Assembly (NCBI GenBank): GCA_023249375.1
Contig: JAHFCT010000027.1
Coordinates: 1-44,071 of the forward strand
Source of the DNA: Gemmatimonadota bacterium
Lineage (GTDB): Bacteria; Gemmatimonadota; Gemmatimonadetes; Gemmatimonadales; Gemmatimonadaceae
Length of the DNA stretch: 44,071 bases
Direction: 5' to 3'
Shown: in pieces, positions 9,952 through 41,285 of the stretch
Numbering within the stretch: position 1 is the stretch's first letter
How the letters are laid out: every line of letters starts with the position of its first letter
The notes under the pieces: generated by a model
What the model was told of the DNA's origin: nothing
Database searches by the model: none
Seen by the model: only the letters and a program-made list of their open reading frames with translations
Position numbers and translations under genes: made by a program

Positions 9952-11151
9952 CTACCGCCCGTACGCGAAACGGCGCAGCAGGCGCAGCATCCGCCGGTCG
10001 TTGGTCACCATGTCATCGCCCTTGGGCGTCTCGAGCACCTTCGGGACGTCGGCGAAGCGCAAGTCGGTCATGATGCGCCGGAATGCCGCCTCGCCGATGC
10101 GGCCCAGCCCGATGAGTTCATGCCGGTCTTTCTTCGAACCGAGCGGCTCCTTGGAATCATTGAGGTGCCAGAGCCCGAGCCTTTCGAAGCCGAGCACGTC
10201 GGCAAAGCGCGACATCACGCCGTCAAAATCGCAGGCGAGGTCGTATCCCGCGGCATAGACGTGCGCCGTGTCGAAGCAGACGCCAACGCGCGACTGCAGA
10301 GCGGCCGGAATGCGCCCGAGCAACTCGGCCATTTCCTCGAACGTCGAGCCGATGACGGTGCCTTGCCCGGCGGTGAGCTCCATGAGCAGCCGCGTGGGGC
10401 CATCGACGCGCTCGAGCACTTCGGTGATGGCGTCGGCGTTGCGCGCGATGCCGCTCGCGCGATCGTCCATGAAGTTGCCCGGGTGCGACACCACCGCGTT
10501 GAGGCCGAGCAGGTTGCTGCGTCGCAGCTCGTACTCGAACGATTCAATGGACTTGGCGCGCAGCGCGGCGTTGGGCGACGCGAGGTTGATGAGATAGCTG
10601 TCGTGCGCGTTCGTGAAGCCCACCGGCGTCCCCGCCAGCGCGGTGCGGAACGTCTGCACTTCGGCGGCCGTGAACACCTTCTCCTTCCACTGGCTGGCCT
10701 GCTTGGTAAAGAGCTGAATGGCGGTCGCGCCAATATCGACGGCGCGAGGCGGCCCGTTGGCCACGCCGCCCGCCGTGCTGACGTGCGCGCCGAGGGGGGC
10801 GCCGATGTATGGCGTGTCGTAGGGCGATGCGCCCGCGGACTGAGGGACGGTACCCGGCTTGGGCACATCAACGGCGCGCGTGGATGACGGACGCGGCGGC
10901 GCGGCGGGTTTGACGCCGACCGGCGTCTTGAGGGCGGGCGGCTTCGGCGCAGGCTTACTGCGTGCGGCCACGGTTGGCGCCGGTTTCTTGGGCGCTGGTT
11001 TCTTCGGCGCTGGTTTCTTGAGCGCGGCTTTCTTCTTTGCGGTCTGCTTGATGGCGGCCTTGGTAGTCGCGGCCTTCTTCGCCGCGGATTTGCCGGACTG
11101 AGCCTTCGTGGGCGCGGTCTTCTTCACGCGCGCTGGCGTCCTGCGAGCCAT
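9952..11151 (-). CDS. nfo: Endonuclease IV with a long basic N-terminal tail
   Basis: The 399-residue protein has a catalytic TIM barrel from about 114 to 399 that repairs abasic sites by cutting the DNA backbone 5' to the lesion. All nine trinuclear zinc ligands of the family can be matched: H183, H223, E258, D294, H297, H329, D342, H344 and E374. Residues 1-112 are an added low-complexity tail rich in Lys, Ala and Pro, with KKPAP units repeated around 45-60; it resembles histone-H1-like tails. Tail-less family members are about 280 residues, so the tail is an extension. It probably increases non-specific DNA binding (inference). It is the last gene of the minus-strand cluster, separated from the zinc-ribbon gene by a repeat-filled gap. 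Confidence 0.93.
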   Translation of the reverse strand: MARRTPARVKKTAPTKAQSGKSAAKKAATTKAAIKQTAKKKAALKKPAPKKPAPKKPAPTVAARSKPAPKPPALKTPVGVKPAAPPRPSSTRAVDVPKPGTVPQSAGASPYDTPYIGAPLGAHVSTAGGVANGPPRAVDIGATAIQLFTKQASQWKEKVFTAAEVQTFRTALAGTPVGFTNAHDSYLINLASPNAALRAKSIESFEYELRRSNLLGLNAVVSHPGNFMDDRASGIARNADAITEVLERVDGPTRLLMELTAGQGTVIGSTFEEMAELLGRIPAALQSRVGVCFDTAHVYAAGYDLACDFDGVMSRFADVLGFERLGLWHLNDSKEPLGSKKDRHELIGLGRIGEAAFRRIMTDLRFADVPKVLETPKGDDMVTNDRRMLRLLRRFAYGR

Positions 11152-11175
11152 AGATGCCTCAATGAGTCACCGTGA

Positions 11176-11227
11176 GTCGATATCCCGAATCGTAATCAGT
11201 TTTCGCGATCCGTGATCCGAATCCTTC
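11176..11227 (+). repeat. Degenerate 13-bp tandem repeat, locus 1
   Basis: Four units in register fill the gap between nfo and the zinc-ribbon gene: GTCGATATCCCGA, ATCGTAATCAGTT, TTCGCGATCCGTG and ATCCGAATCCTTC. TC occurs at positions 2-3 and 8-9 of every unit, giving an alternating 7/6-base rhythm of ATC. The last two bases run into the end of the zinc-ribbon gene. The same unit in the same plus-strand orientation occurs at 34364-34415. No function is known to me. Confidence 0.75.
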
Positions 11228-11432
11228 AGTCGTACTCTCCGTCCCGTCCCCGCAAACGCTTGCCGCACCGTGGGCAGTGCAGCAAGTCGCCCGTCTCGTG
11301 CAGCGCATACTCGTAGCCGCGGCCGCACGTGCACGCCGACTCAAGCGCTTCGGACCCGCAGACGATGCAGAAGAGATCCTCGTCCTCATAGGCGCGGATG
11401 CGGCTGCAGACGGCGCAACGTTTGGTGATCAT
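11226..11432 (-). CDS. Small double zinc-ribbon protein
   Basis: This is a 68-residue protein with eight cysteines in four pairs: C6/C9, C22/C25, C34/C36 and C53/C56, enough for two zinc ribbons. I start it at ATG 11432 because that codon overlaps the TGA stop of the envC-like gene (ATGA), a pattern repeated along this cluster. An upstream GTG at 11450 would lie inside that gene. The C-terminus is acidic. Such small ribbons can be nucleic-acid or protein adaptors, but nothing shows its partner. It is likely translated by coupling to the upstream gene. The function is unknown. Confidence 0.72.
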   Translation of the reverse strand: MITKRCAVCSRIRAYEDEDLFCIVCGSEALESACTCGRGYEYALHETGDLLHCPRCGKRLRGRDGEYD

Positions 11433-12655
11433 CGGCGGCCGCGCAGCCACTCGAGCGGGTCCACGGCGCGTCCCTTGGGACGCATTTCAAAATGCAGATG
11501 CGCGTCGAGGTCGGGGTCGGTGCGTCCCACGGTGCCAATCACCTGACCCTTCTGAATGGTCTGTCCCTTGCGCACATCGAGGCGCGCGAGCGACCCATAC
11601 ACGGAGAAGTCGCCGTCGCCGTGGCTCACGATCACGGTCTGTCCGTAGGTGCCAAACGCCTCGGCCAGCACCACCGAACCACCGGCCACCGCCTTGACCG
11701 ACGTCCCCGCCGGCGCGCCGATACCGACGCCGTTCCAGCGCGTTGTCGTGTTGTTGGCGTTCACGACGCGCCCAAAGCGATAGAGGATCGTTCCTTCCAC
11801 CGGCCAGTCGAGCCGGCCGAGGTCGCTGGTGCGCAGGGTGCTCGACGCGGCCGGCGCATTGGGGCGCGCTGCGATCGCACGCCGCCGCTCGGCTTCAAAC
11901 GTGGCGAGCAGGTCGGCCAGCTTCTTCTCGTCGCGCTGGATCTGCTGCAGCCGCACCTCGGTTTGCCGCGCCGACTGCTGCACCTTGGCGAGCGACTTGC
12001 CGCGGGCGTCCTCCAGTTCGCGCAGGCGGCGTTCCTCCTCCGTCTTCTGTTCGCGGTTGAGCTCCATTTCGCCCTGCAGCCGCACGAGCTGCGTGCGGGT
12101 GCCGGAGATCTGGTCGTTGAGCAACTCCACACGCCGCACGAGCGCGCGGTCGCGCTGGGCGACGAGATGCAGATACTTGTAGCGCGCGACGAGCGCGCCA
12201 AACGACTGCGCCGAGAGGAGCGCCTCGAGCGAATAGAGGGCGCCGCGCTTGTAGATCTCGCGGACGCGGCGCTGCAGCATCGAGCGCTTGATGACGAGTT
12301 CGTCCTGCGCCAGCACGAGGCTGGCCGAGGCGTTGGTCACCTCGCCCTCGAGCGCGCCGATCTGCGCGTCGAGCGAGCGGACCACGCGCGCCGTGGCGTC
12401 GGCCTGGCGCTCGATGTTGGTGCGCTCCTCACTGATGTCGTGCGCCGTGCTCTGCAGCTGGCGCATGCGCTGCTCCAGGCGCTCGCGCTCGGCGCGCATG
12501 CGGTCGAGCTCTTCGCGCTGGGCCTTGGCGCGGTCGGCGGAAGATGGCGGGGCAGGCTGTTGCGCCGCGAGCGGCGCGATGGTAGACGGTAGAAGGTAGA
12601 TGGTAGAGAGGACGGCGACGGCGGACATCGCGCGCCGCAGCCCGTATGCCACCAT
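11429..12655 (-). CDS. envC: EnvC-like murein hydrolase activator (coiled coil plus degenerate LytM domain)
   Basis: This 408-residue exported protein follows ftsE and ftsX. Residues about 8-32 form a signal peptide ending near APLAAQQ. A long coiled coil follows (about 40-270), then a LytM/M23 domain to the end. The first zinc position and its Asp partner are replaced (WNGVGIGAP where active enzymes have HxGxD), while the later HLHFE is kept. This suggests a catalytically dead domain that activates amidases, as known for EnvC in the FtsEX system. The start is uncertain: ATG 12655 is used, ATG 12628 also gives a signal peptide, and ATG 12718 overlaps the ftsX stop (TGATG) but gives an odd N-terminus. 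Heptamer repeats lie within this 5' region. Confidence 0.85.
   Translation of the reverse strand: MVAYGLRRAMSAVAVLSTIYLLPSTIAPLAAQQPAPPSSADRAKAQREELDRMRAERERLEQRMRQLQSTAHDISEERTNIERQADATARVVRSLDAQIGALEGEVTNASASLVLAQDELVIKRSMLQRRVREIYKRGALYSLEALLSAQSFGALVARYKYLHLVAQRDRALVRRVELLNDQISGTRTQLVRLQGEMELNREQKTEEERRLRELEDARGKSLAKVQQSARQTEVRLQQIQRDEKKLADLLATFEAERRRAIAARPNAPAASSTLRTSDLGRLDWPVEGTILYRFGRVVNANNTTTRWNGVGIGAPAGTSVKAVAGGSVVLAEAFGTYGQTVIVSHGDGDFSVYGSLARLDVRKGQTIQKGQVIGTVGRTDPDLDAHLHFEMRPKGRAVDPLEWLRGRR
12579..12607. repeat. Heptamer tandem repeat, arm 1 of an inverted pair
   Basis: Starting at 12581 the plus strand reads GGTAGAC, GGTAGAA, GGTAGAT, GGTAGAG: four perfect 7-base spacings of GGTAGAN. 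The tract codes for the signal peptide of the envC-like protein on the minus strand. The 29 bases 12579-12607 match the reverse complement of 12684-12712 at 25 positions. Because 7 is not a multiple of 3, a change in copy number would shift the reading frame. Confidence 0.75.
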
Positions 12656-12683
12656 TCGTGCGCGATCGCACATCCACGCGCGA

Positions 12684-12712
12684 TCTACCATCCACCCTCT
12701 ACCCTCGACCAT
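12684..12712. repeat. Heptamer tandem repeat, arm 2 of an inverted pair
   Basis: The plus strand reads TCTACCA, TCCACCC, TCTACCC, TCGACCA in 7-base register, the same heptamer as arm 1 but in the opposite orientation and more diverged. It lies between the ftsX stop (12718) and ATG 12655, the start chosen for the envC-like gene. With 76 bases between the arms, a transcript could fold into a long hairpin around the candidate start codons. Confidence 0.7.
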
Positions 12713-12717
12713 CTGCA

Positions 12718-32060: not shown

Positions 32061-33350
32061 TCAGTCGCGCTTCATCTCGAGAATCGCAATTCGGCGGCCG
32101 TCCATTTCGCGCACCGTCCACGCCGCACCGCCGCCACTCACGTGGTCGCCCACCTGCGGCAGGCGTCCCAGCAGGCCGAAGACAAACCCGCCCACCGTCG
32201 TGTAGTCGTCCTCCGGCACCTGCAGTCCGTGCTGCTCGTTGACGTCAGCAATCTCCGCCTGACCCGGCACCAGCGCGTCGCCTGATTTCGAATGCTGCGC
32301 GGCGGCGATTCCCTCGTCGTGTTCATCAAGAATTTCGCCGACGAGTTCCTCGAGCAGATCCTCCATCGTCACCAGCCCGGCCGTGCCGCCGTACTCGTCG
32401 AGCACGATCGCCAGGTGCTCCTTGAGCCGCTTGAAGTCGGCGAGCACCTCTTCCACCTCGCGCGAGCCCGGCACGGCGTGCACGTCGCGCATCACGCTCG
32501 CCATCGAGAACGTCGCCGGCCGATAGCGCAGCACCCGCAGCAGATCCTTGGCGTGCACCATCCCGACGATGTTGTCCAAAGAATCTTCGAAGACGGGATA
32601 GCGCGAGAACCCAGCTTCCACCACAATCGCCAGCGCCTCGTCGAGCGTCGACTCGGCGTCAATCGCGACGATGGCCGTGCGCGGCGTCATGACTTCGCGC
32701 GCATTCTTCTCCGAGAACTCAAAGACGGCACCAATGAGATCGGCGTCCTGCTGCTCGATTTCACCCTCGCGCTGGCTCTGTTCGACGATGACCTTCAGCT
32801 CCTCGGGCGAGTGCACGCCGTCATGCGCCGAATCCAGCCGCACGCCGAACAGGTGCAGCACGCCAGCCGCGGACGCGCTGAGCAGCATCGTGAACGGCCG
32901 CACCACCCAGGCAAACCCAAGCAACGGCGGGGCAAGCCACTTGGCCCACGCCTCGGGGTGCTGGAGGGCGGCGTTCTTGGGCGCCAGCTCGCCAAAAACC
33001 ACGTGGAGGTAGGTCACGATGAGCAGCGCAAACGCGGCGCCGAGGCTCACACGAACCCCCGCCTCGATAGCGAACGGCAACTGCGCAAACCACCGCTCGA
33101 AGAAATGCCCGACCGATTCCTCTGCCACCCAGCCGAGTCCCAGCGACGCCGCCGTGATTCCCAACTGGCTCGCCGAGAGCACACGCGCCAGATTGTCGGT
33201 AGCGTGCAGGGCGAACCGCGCAATCGGGTCGCCGGCACGGACCATCGCCTGCAGGCGTGTGCGTCGCGCGCGCACCAGCGCGAACTCCGCCGCGACGAAG
33301 TACCCGTTCAGGAGAAGCAGCAGGACAATGATTCCGATGCGAGAGAGCAC
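32061..33350 (-). CDS. CNNM/CorC-type transporter protein (hemolysin C family)
   Basis: This is a 429-residue inner-membrane protein. Residues 1-175 form the CNNM membrane domain (three or four helices, starting RIGIIVLLLLLNGYFVAAEFALVRARRTRL), about 195-320 a pair of CBS domains (REVMTPRTAIVAI and a second repeat), and about 345-425 the CorC/HlyC domain (DDYTTVGGFVFGLLGRLPQVGD). Members transport or regulate transport of Mg2+ or Co2+, with nucleotide sensing by the CBS pair. It starts at GTG 33350; the signal-anchor helix follows directly. It is divergent from the CDF zinc exporter, with 51 bp between, so their promoters lie in that gap. Confidence 0.92.
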   Translation of the reverse strand: MLSRIGIIVLLLLLNGYFVAAEFALVRARRTRLQAMVRAGDPIARFALHATDNLARVLSASQLGITAASLGLGWVAEESVGHFFERWFAQLPFAIEAGVRVSLGAAFALLIVTYLHVVFGELAPKNAALQHPEAWAKWLAPPLLGFAWVVRPFTMLLSASAAGVLHLFGVRLDSAHDGVHSPEELKVIVEQSQREGEIEQQDADLIGAVFEFSEKNAREVMTPRTAIVAIDAESTLDEALAIVVEAGFSRYPVFEDSLDNIVGMVHAKDLLRVLRYRPATFSMASVMRDVHAVPGSREVEEVLADFKRLKEHLAIVLDEYGGTAGLVTMEDLLEELVGEILDEHDEGIAAAQHSKSGDALVPGQAEIADVNEQHGLQVPEDDYTTVGGFVFGLLGRLPQVGDHVSGGGAAWTVREMDGRRIAILEMKRD

Positions 33351-33401
33351 GAATCAAACGTACCGACGGCGTCTCTCGCGACGCCAGCGCCGGGCGCGCG
33401 C

Positions 33402-34364
33402 GTGAGCGCCGTCGTCGCCAAGACCGACTGCGCCCCGCTGGCCAATGGCCGTGCCGGTGGCGCTCCGCTCACGCACGGTGACGAGGGCCACAGCCATCAT
33501 CATCACGATCAGGCGACGGCCGGCCTCAAGGCCGCGCTTTGGCTTACGCTCCTCTTCTTCTTCGCCGAAGTCATCGGCGGCTTTCTCGCCAACTCGCTCG
33601 CGCTGCTCGCCGACGCGGGCCACATGCTCACCGACGTCGGCGCGCTGGGTCTGACGCTCTTCGTCGCCTGGTTCAGCCGGCAGCCGGGCAACGCGAGCAA
33701 GACGTACGGATATCTGCGCTGGGAAATTCTCGCCGCGTTTCTGAATGGCTCGGTGCTGTTGCTCGTGAGCGCCGGCATCGTGTGGGAGGCCATCGGACGG
33801 CTGCGCCATCCCCAGCCGATCGAGAGCGGCGTGATGCTGATTGTCGCCACCGGCGGGCTCGTGGTGAACATTGCCGCCGCGCGGCTGCTGCACGCCGGCG
33901 CGACGCACTCGCTCAACATGCGCGGCGCCTACCTGCACGTGGTCAGCGATCTTCTGGGCTCGGTGGCCGCCATCATCGCGGGCCTCGCCGTGCGCTACCA
34001 GGGATGGACGATTGCCGACCCCGTGGCCTCCATCGTGATGACGGCGCTCATCGTGCGCGGCGCGTGGCAGTTGGTGCGCGAGAGCGTGGATGTGCTGCTC
34101 GAAGCCGTGCCGCCGCATATCCAGCTCGACGCCGTGCGCGCCGCCATCGCCGCGGTGCCCGGCGTCGGATCGGTGCACGACCTGCACATCTGGACGGTGA
34201 CGAGCGGCATGATCGCCATGAGCGTGCACGTCGTCGTGCCGGAACCCGCCGCGCACCAAAGCGCACTCGAACAAATCCACGCCAACATGGCCGCCTTCGG
34301 CATCGGCCACGTCACGGTACAAGTGGAAGGGCAGGCCCTCGCCGAGTGCGTTCCCGCTCGCTAA
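33402..34364 (+). CDS. Cation-diffusion-facilitator zinc exporter (ZitB/CzcD type)
   Basis: This 320-residue inner-membrane antiporter exports Zn2+, Cd2+ or Co2+ in exchange for protons. After a His-rich N-terminal segment (HGDEGHSHHHHDQ) come six membrane helices. The two metal-site pairs are DAGHMLTD in helix 2 and HVVSDLLG in helix 5, each with the His-x3-Asp spacing expected for zinc specificity. The cytosolic C-terminal domain starts near VLLEAVPPHIQ and ends with the HVTVQVE strand. GTG 33402 is the only reasonable start after the divergent CorC gene; no Shine-Dalgarno sequence is evident. It ends in the first unit of a 13-bp repeat tract. Confidence 0.9.
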   Translation: MSAVVAKTDCAPLANGRAGGAPLTHGDEGHSHHHHDQATAGLKAALWLTLLFFFAEVIGGFLANSLALLADAGHMLTDVGALGLTLFVAWFSRQPGNASKTYGYLRWEILAAFLNGSVLLLVSAGIVWEAIGRLRHPQPIESGVMLIVATGGLVVNIAAARLLHAGATHSLNMRGAYLHVVSDLLGSVAAIIAGLAVRYQGWTIADPVASIVMTALIVRGAWQLVRESVDVLLEAVPPHIQLDAVRAAIAAVPGVGSVHDLHIWTVTSGMIAMSVHVVVPEPAAHQSALEQIHANMAAFGIGHVTVQVEGQALAECVPAR

Positions 34365-34415
34365 TCGCTATCCGAAATCGCAATCCTGAATCATTATCCG
34401 TGATCCCTGTCCGGA
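34364..34415 (+). repeat. Degenerate 13-bp tandem repeat, locus 2
   Basis: Four units in register lie between the CDF exporter and the PilT-like gene: ATCGCTATCCGAA, ATCGCAATCCTGA, ATCATTATCCGTG and ATCCCTGTCCGGA. They match locus 1 (11176-11227) in unit length, orientation and the TC pairs at positions 2-3 and 8-9. The remaining nine bases before ATG 34425 begin a fifth partial unit (ATCTCCGTT). The tract replaces any normal leader, and no strong Shine-Dalgarno sequence is seen. Confidence 0.75.
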
Positions 34416-34424
34416 ATCTCCGTT

Positions 34425-36011
34425 ATGGCTCAGCTCGATAAGCTCCTTCAGGTCATGATCCAGAAGAGCGCCGAGGCGCTCGAGATGGACGAAGACGCCG
34501 CCGCCATCCTGCGGCTCGAGGGACACGACACGCCGGTCACCAAGCCGCTGAATGGGGCGCAGGTGGTGGGCCTGCTCAAGGAGATTGCGCCGCCGCAGGC
34601 CGCGGCCAGTCTGGATCAGAAGTCGCCGGTGAAGTTCCAGTACACCAACGCCGACGGTGTCTTCCTCGTCCGGGCGATGCTGCAGGGGAACAAGTGGCAT
34701 TGCCAGCTCTCGGTGGACGACAAGGGCGAGTTCGAGCGGCGCACGGGGATGTTTCGCGCCGTCGACCTCGAATCCGGCGTCGTGTCCACCACGGCGCAGG
34801 CCGCGCCGCCCGTAGCCGACTCCGCCGCGCTCAGCGATCCGGCCAAGGCCAAGGGCGAAATGGAGCGTCTCCTTCGCCTGCTGGTGGACGTGGGCGGCTC
34901 CGACCTGCACCTGCGCGTTGGCGAGCCGCCGATCATTCGCAAGAGCGGCGAGATGACGCGCGTCGAGGGCGTGACGATGACGGGCGCCGCGCTCGACGCG
35001 ATGCTGCAGGCGATCATGCCCGACCGCAACAAGAAGGAGTTCGCCGAGCACAACGACACCGATTTCGCGTACGAAATCGAGAACGTCGCGCGCTATCGCG
35101 CCAACGCACTCAAGGACCGTAAGGGGCCGGCCGCCGTCTTCCGCATCATTCCCACCACCATCGTCACCGCCGACCAGCTCGGCGTCACCCCCGAGGTGCA
35201 GAAGCTCTGCTACCTCACCAAGGGACTGGTGCTCGTCACGGGACCCACGGGCTCCGGCAAGTCCACGACGCTCTGCGCGCTCATCGACCTCGTCAACCGA
35301 TCGCGCTCTGACCACGTCATCACCATCGAAGACCCCATCGAGTTCGTGCACGAGAACAAGAGCTGCATCATCACGCAGCGGCAGGTGGGCGTGCACACCG
35401 ATTCGTTCAAGAGCGCGCTGCGTGCCGCGCTGCGCGAGGATCCGGATATCATCCTCGTCGGCGAGCTGCGCGACCTCGAAACGGTCGCCATCGCCATCGA
35501 GACGGCCGAGACGGGGCACTTGGTCTTTGGCACGTTGCACACGACGACGGCACCCAGCACCATCGACCGCCTTATCGACCAGTTCCCGGCCGACCGTCAG
35601 GAGCAGGTGCGTACGATGCTCTCCGAGTCGCTCAAGGGCGTCGTGTCGCAGGTGCTCTGCAAGAAGATCGGCGGCGGCCGCGTGGCCGCGCGCGAGATCC
35701 TGCTCGTCACCTCCGCCGTGTCGAACCTCATTCGCGAGGGCAAGACGTTCCAGATTCCCAGCATCATGCAGACGTCCAAGCGCATCGGCATGGTCACGAT
35801 GAACGACACGCTCATCGGACTCGTCGAGCAGAAATTGGTCGAGCCGAAGGAAGCCTGGATGAAGTCGGTGGAAAAGCCCGCCTTCGTCGCCTCACTGAAG
35901 GTCAAGGGCTTCGACGTGTCGTTCGCCGAGTCGGAGATGCAAAAGGAGCAGGAGGCGGCGGCGGGCGGTGCGGGAGCTGGAAAACCCGGCCCGGGCGGGG
36001 TGCGGCGGTAG
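34425..36011 (+). CDS. PilT/PilU-type pilus retraction ATPase with a duplicated N-domain
   Basis: This is a 528-residue secretion ATPase. The canonical part covers about 146-500: PAS-like N-domain (MERLLRLLVDVGGSDLHLRVGEPP), Walker A GPTGSGKS at 273-280, the Asp box TIEDPIEF, Walker B DPDIILVGELRD at 339-350 and the His box GHLVFGTLHT at 364-373. It should power type IV pilus retraction in the cytosol. Residues about 1-115 are extra and resemble a degenerate second copy of the N-domain. The C-terminus ends in a Gly/Ala-rich tail. No pilin or other pilus gene is nearby. It ends directly against the convergent membrane-protein gene, with no gap. Confidence 0.92.
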   Translation: MAQLDKLLQVMIQKSAEALEMDEDAAAILRLEGHDTPVTKPLNGAQVVGLLKEIAPPQAAASLDQKSPVKFQYTNADGVFLVRAMLQGNKWHCQLSVDDKGEFERRTGMFRAVDLESGVVSTTAQAAPPVADSAALSDPAKAKGEMERLLRLLVDVGGSDLHLRVGEPPIIRKSGEMTRVEGVTMTGAALDAMLQAIMPDRNKKEFAEHNDTDFAYEIENVARYRANALKDRKGPAAVFRIIPTTIVTADQLGVTPEVQKLCYLTKGLVLVTGPTGSGKSTTLCALIDLVNRSRSDHVITIEDPIEFVHENKSCIITQRQVGVHTDSFKSALRAALREDPDIILVGELRDLETVAIAIETAETGHLVFGTLHTTTAPSTIDRLIDQFPADRQEQVRTMLSESLKGVVSQVLCKKIGGGRVAAREILLVTSAVSNLIREGKTFQIPSIMQTSKRIGMVTMNDTLIGLVEQKLVEPKEAWMKSVEKPAFVASLKVKGFDVSFAESEMQKEQEAAAGGAGAGKPGPGGVRR

Positions 36012-40127: not shown

Positions 40128-40203
<76 letters not shown>

Positions 40204-41241: not shown

Positions 41242-41285
41242 TCCTCATAGGCGTGAGGTCCGAGCTCAACCCTCGATGGCCCATT
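41242..41285 (+). repeat. Decayed tRNA-Ile 3' half, attachment copy 2
   Basis: These 44 bases align with 40158-40203 of tRNA-Ile: CCTCATAGGCGTGAGGTC is near-identical to the anticodon-loop region, followed by CGAG-CTCAAC-CCTCGATGG and GCCCATT. There are two single-base deletions and a few substitutions. No 5' half precedes it, so it cannot be a functional tRNA. It marks the right end of the toxin-antitoxin segment. Confidence 0.8.

Follow-up and report, generated by a model that had tools for sequence, protein, structure and literature searches.

The window analysed here is the whole 44,071-nt stretch, contig C68 of the host genome (G000), which is a 120-contig draft of 3.81 Mb and about 96% complete. 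It holds two repeat loci, which an earlier note, made from the sequence alone, had placed in unrelated intergenic gaps. Both adjoin gene boundaries. The repeat loci and the genes around them are as follows.

9952–11151, (−): gene downstream of locus 1, AP_endonuc_2/TIM barrel, with a Lys/Ala-rich N-terminus
~11168–11230, (−): full arm of locus 1, single and diverged; E = 4.6e-10 with a profile partly built from both loci
11176–11227, (+): locus 1 as delimited in the earlier note, arm interior and core
11208–11224, (−): core of locus 1, GGATTCGGATCACGGAT, 3 mismatches
11226–11432, (−): 68-aa ORF resembling a CxxC zinc ribbon, its end within the locus 1 arm
32292–34364, (+): gene upstream of locus 2, cation-efflux family with ZT_dimer
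~34356–34418, (−): full arm of locus 2, single and intact; E = 8.4e-15 with the same profile, partly built from both loci
34364–34415, (+): locus 2 as delimited in the earlier note, arm interior and core
34396–34412, (−): core of locus 2, 17 bp, species-specific, exact GGACAGGGATCACGGAT
34425–36011, (+): T2SSE-family ATPase gene adjoining locus 2

Repeat loci and neighbouring genes in the window

The locus 2 arm takes up the whole 60-bp intergenic spacer. A distance of 6 bp separates its outer end from the ATG (34425) of the T2SSE-family ATPase gene, and its inner end overlaps the stop codon of the cation-efflux gene (34364). At locus 1, the outer box, here GACTGA, includes the TGA stop (11226–11228) of the 68-aa ORF, for which a weak Zn_Ribbon_1 match was obtained, below the cut-off.

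The eight 13-mers of the two loci all carry TC at positions 2–3 and 8–9; seven have A at position 7 (the odd one is ATCCCTGTCCGGA) and seven have C at position 10 (the odd one is ATCGTAATCAGTT). This description, given earlier, is exact on re-reading; the coordinates given with it covered most of each arm but missed the ends. The most conserved section of both arms is the core. Tandem Repeats Finder returned locus 2 as a 13-bp array (34363–34418, 4.3 copies, 67% matches) and did not detect locus 1. A periodic pattern of 31 positions learnt from the family matched 30 positions at 34418(−) and 25 at 11230(−), compared with a maximum of 22 in 200 Markov-1 windows; as this pattern is family-derived, the genome-wide controls given below are the fairer test. 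Neither locus is a product of chance; each represents a single arm of an element that is dispersed in the genome.

Among the Rfam families searched for in the window, tRNA-Ile alone matched, and the repeat loci matched no RNA family. The 3′ end of this tRNA gene (CCTCGATGGCCCATT) lies at 40189–40203 and is found a second time at 41271–41285, 1.08 kb downstream, a doubling such as the integration of an element leaves behind. Another array family, comparable in style, is present at 12581–12714, where an inverted pair of degenerate heptamer arrays (four copies of GGTAGAN and 4.6 copies of ATCTACC) surrounds the start of a (−) gene at 11429–12655.

Size, anatomy and placement of the family in the host genome

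BLAST with locus 2 found 53 places in the host genome. The core GGACAGGGATCACGGAT, allowing up to two mismatches, is present in 109 genomic copies, and its reversed control in none; this is a strong excess in the kind of genome scan by which the earlier note had proposed to refute its repeat. A profile based on sequence alone and trained on 30 arms, both window loci among them, identified 131 arms at E ≤0.01, bearing out the suggestion of a dispersed element.

From its outer end inward, an arm consists of GATTGA - GGACAGGGATCACGGAT - nnCGATTnn - GGATnnCGATTnn - GGAnnnnGATnGCGAT and measures about 62 bp. Within it, GA recurs in about ten steps alternating between 6 and 7 bp (mean 6.5), which agrees with the 7/6 rhythm seen before. 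The arms are nevertheless not the free-running 13-bp tandem repeat first described, since the number of units is largely fixed, a near-invariant core sits at one end and many arms form inverted pairs. Information content is 1.2–2.0 bits in the core columns, mostly 0.9–1.7 bits in the GA columns and about 0–0.5 bits in the n columns. Among 112 arms, chosen by core match for the counts of pairing and placement, 68 belong to inverted pairs in extragenic gaps with the cores facing outward; the remainder are single. The inner gap of the 32 inverted pairs is mostly shorter than 40 bp.

When the variable columns of 110 arms were compared, the copies were nearly independent of each other, apart from one near-identical pair due to local duplication, and groups of near-identical copies, a trait of recent MITEs, were absent from this set. 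With the n columns near-independent, the invariance of the core is not explained by shared recent ancestry, which suggests that every copy is under selection, at the level of the host or of the element. In L099, an identical arm plus flank occurs at positions 2174 and 3299, about 1.1 kb apart, as a local duplication. Minimal elements that have lost their interior and consist of inverted outer cores only were seen in L089 (2014–2051) and L096 (2087–2132).

For the placement relative to genes we relied on our own simple codon-usage gene caller. Of the outer ends, 67 point towards a stop codon, 79% of them from no more than 15 bp away, and 44 towards a start codon, 50% of them from within that distance; 75 of the 112 arms have their outer end at most 15 bp from a gene boundary. 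In some instances, locus 1 among them, the stop codon of the gene itself overlaps the TGA in the GATTGA box. Divergent gaps are under-used, with 8 of 111 arms compared with 12 of 52 gaps in a small background of gaps ≥55 bp from the same caller (Fisher P = 0.009). Because divergent gaps are avoided, promoter-type regulation is disfavoured, and the earlier proposal of a regulatory or structural element is weakened in its promoter-sense part. Avoidance of divergent gaps and abutment on genes could also mean no more than that additional DNA is tolerated in such places. Among single arms in codirectional gaps, 18 have the GA strand in the sense direction and 15 have the TC strand; the signal is thus not strand-specific, which argues for a feature at the DNA level.

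Genus restriction, core dialects and orthologous gaps

G000 and eight of ten congeners carry the interior pattern GGATnnCGATTnnGGATnnCGATT (at most one mismatch), which was absent from all 30 genomes scanned from outside the genus. Likewise, a generic array pattern was present in seven of eight genomes of the genus, compared with 0 of 241 others sampled across the phylum. The profile scan yielded 45–131 arms in each genome of the genus except G003, which has 2. Among the genomes scanned, the family is confined to one Gemmatimonadota genus. Viral contigs, searched with two dialects, gave no match.

Within the genus, the core differs between species. Its consensus is GGACAGGGATCAC in G000, GGATnTGGACtnA in G005 and G004, and GGATntGGAATcC in G001, and many matches in G008 read GGATTGGGAGCTC. 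The G005-type core occurs 87 times in G005, 57 times in G004 and not at all in G000, and the G000-type core is absent from G004 and G005; more than one core type is present in G005 and in G002. A search of about 85,000 species genomes found the G000 core only in the MAG nzgw229. The G009 contig with most nzgw229 copies is at least 99.9% identical to the host genome where the two overlap; these copies therefore probably come from the same population binned elsewhere and not from an independent species. The G009 contigs C17, C27 and C76 correspond to L109–L111, L109 being the stretch with at least 99.9% identity to the host genome, and L110 bears the same arms with flanks as L048.

In the gap orthologous to locus 2, a diverged array is also found in G005, G001 and G002, where TC every 6–7 bp is retained and other bases have changed. 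We further drew 20 arms at random from those abutting stop codons and inspected their gaps in G005, G004 and G001, with flanks mostly 69–93% identical. An orthologous gap was available for 18, and 12 of these have an arm in at least one species; read by eye, 25 of 44 orthologous-gap comparisons were occupied. Six of the 18 testable arms lack a counterpart in any examined relative, so that many sites appear dispensable.

Orthologous arms whose flanks are 81–86% identical agree in the GA columns at 0.85–0.94 and in the n columns at 0.40–0.56, and their cores are kept at just 0.15–0.35 outside the G004–G005 pair. Relatives do keep the repeat while its units change, a point raised in the earlier note: the GA columns are kept, the n columns are not, nor is the core outside G004–G005. 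Random arms from the same two species scored about equal to orthologous ones; as orthologues resemble each other no more closely than random arms do, repeated replacement in place is possible. Occupied gaps of the relatives retain the GA steps, show randomised n positions and carry the dialect of the species in place of the host core; constraint lies on the core and the GA columns and none on the n columns. Replacement of the core from species to species requires either that it co-evolves with a protein that is itself changing or that turnover goes on. A joint switch of the core at more than 100 sites seems hard to achieve by point mutation alone and seems to require turnover or copying.

Further array families were seen alongside. 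For L083 and L036, the orthologous gap of a relative holds a different short-period array family. A heptamer-like array (GGGTGCAGGGGAAGAGGCAG...), forming an inverted pair with a GC hairpin in its middle, occurs in L113 (13448–13629), L208 and L192; in G004 and G001 it fills the gap that is occupied in G000 by the 13-mer element (L083). Convergent gaps of G001 contain inverted pairs of a TTCACCACGGAGGCACGGAGGA...GAGGGCCACGGAGGA family (L215, 9877–10105; L217, 15925–16209; L218, 3194–3392 and 18454–18666), and AGAGACAACAG inverted-pair arrays with a period of 11 are found in the same genome (L216, 7006–7135; L220, 10511–10815). Another family is represented by an inverted pair of CCACGGATGACACGGATTGAACGGATGGACACGGAT in L109 (2050–2282).

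Candidate binding arrays, alternative explanations and known systems

We tentatively favour the interpretation that the arms are selected, DNA-level binding arrays for a putative cooperative protein at the edges of transcription units, although our confidence stays somewhat below even. The constrained core and GA columns, the balanced orientation, the placement at gene edges, the avoidance of divergent gaps, the dialects and an Omega-type analogue support it; the joint core change at more than 100 sites, the dispensable sites and a placement due to tolerance only count against it. We infer that such a protein imposes the constraint, binds cooperatively and acts at gene edges. Each arm would be a DNA platform on which this sequence-specific protein assembles, with the outer core as a high-affinity or nucleating word and the GGA/GA steps every 6–7 bp (about ten over ~62 bp) seating successive subunits inward from the gene edge. 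Arms, single or paired, occupy spacers between transcription units as well as inside operons, mostly outside promoter gaps, and there the assembled complex may mark or insulate the edge of the transcribed unit as a roadblock, or as a topological or nucleoid-packing boundary. Protein specificity and core word would drift jointly in each species, yielding the dialects. With more reserve, we consider it possible that this amounts to one genus-specific system, in which a single putative cooperative protein serves about 100 polar, fixed-length edge arrays and its specificity and sites co-drift into dialects.

The main rival, which we regard as rather unlikely, is REPIN-like selfish DNA. An inverted pair would then be a small element without autonomy, mobilised in trans by a putative transposase and tolerated in extragenic non-promoter DNA only, with the singles as remnants and the dialects as a result of lineage turnover. 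REPINs and REP-BIMEs are the nearest relatives by look, being dispersed, extragenic and located at gene ends, with inverted doublets that have conserved outer ends and a variable middle. The strong RNA fold of the pairs (z −6.6 to −11.7), the copies missing from orthologous gaps of relatives and the mixture of dialects within G005 and G002 also fit. However, a search for RAYT (PF01797, Y1_Tnp) gave no match in G000 and one among ten genus genomes searched, recent copies are lacking, and positions are largely common to species (25 of the 44 comparisons). REP singlets decay and doublets are better conserved (PMC3116915), whereas single arms here are conserved like pairs (mean core mismatches 0.57 and 0.68, respectively; P = 0.40). 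A REP is described in PMC3733652 as a small (20–40 bp) imperfect palindrome with a GTAG-type tag. The arms are longer (~62 bp), stepped at 6/7 bp and not self-palindromic, the fold of single arms being no stronger than that of shuffled sequences (z −0.91 to 0.39), and the arm consensus has no GTAG-type tag.

We consider it improbable that the arms act at the RNA level, as a 3′-UTR- or terminator-associated element working via stability, CsrA-like GGA binding or Rho loading on the TC strand. Many arms do begin directly after stop codons, 19 of the 32 inverted pairs have a central hairpin between the arms, and arms in the GA-sense orientation show a GGA roughly every 13 nt, with TC every 6–7 nt on the opposite strand. 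Yet many arms adjoin start codons, isolated arms lack an unusual fold, and the two arms of a pair match in their variable columns at 0.40 compared with 0.36 by chance, a weak excess in this test of hairpin constraint. Terminator-like hairpins next to single arms were no commoner than random by a crude criterion in this GC-rich genome, and a 17-bp invariant core is unexpected for Rho. The Rho/YC and CsrA/GGA readings were set aside because of the balanced orientation in codirectional gaps and the long invariant core.

Neutral, functionless slippage debris of a satellite-like type is very improbable. Cyanobacterial STRR heptamers are short-period arrays in intergenic DNA as well, and other short-period inverted arrays occupy the same kinds of gap here. 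The arms differ in their fixed length and polarity, in the fixed number and order of units, the invariant core and the inverted pairs, and their GA columns are held while the n columns are randomised, both within and between species.

DNA uptake sequences (DUS) of Neisseriaceae also occur as inverted pairs near gene ends. Uptake- or recognition-signal-like words spread by biased uptake and recombination would provide one motif with species-specific dialects, as in Neisseria (PMC3630211), at shared positions, but we give this explanation hardly any credence, since the unit here is far longer (62 bp), has about 100 copies instead of thousands and is largely extragenic.

No named repeat of this form was met in the papers and Rfam families searched, in line with the earlier note. 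Literature searches, which included sequence words and Gemmatimonas intergenic repeats and covered few subscription papers, returned no description, and the family seems undescribed in the literature searched. It joins traits that are rarely combined, the look of a selfish repeat with constraint on each copy and species-specific words at conserved positions. This combination makes possible a concrete test between intergenic repeats as parasites and as working parts of the chromosome. Should a protein be found, it would establish boundary or nucleoid elements of a new kind in a phylum that has been little studied, together with a natural series of site dialects that evolved along with it.

For the preferred reading as binding arrays, the closest parallel is parS of pSM19035 with the ribbon-helix-helix (RHH) protein Omega, in which 7–10 unspaced 7-bp repeats are each bound by an RHH dimer (PMC9499535). 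Both systems have contiguous, short, non-palindromic repeats spaced by about 7 bp; with about ten GA steps, each arm has the at least four contiguous ~7-bp repeats of an RHH operator, and the arm core contains the word ATCAC, as do the parS heptads. The mean step is 6.5 bp here and exactly 7 bp there, and the pSM19035 sites belong to plasmid promoters and a centromere, whereas the arms lie in about 100 chromosomal gaps. As an analogy and not a matter of membership, Omega-type parS shows how such an array could be read.
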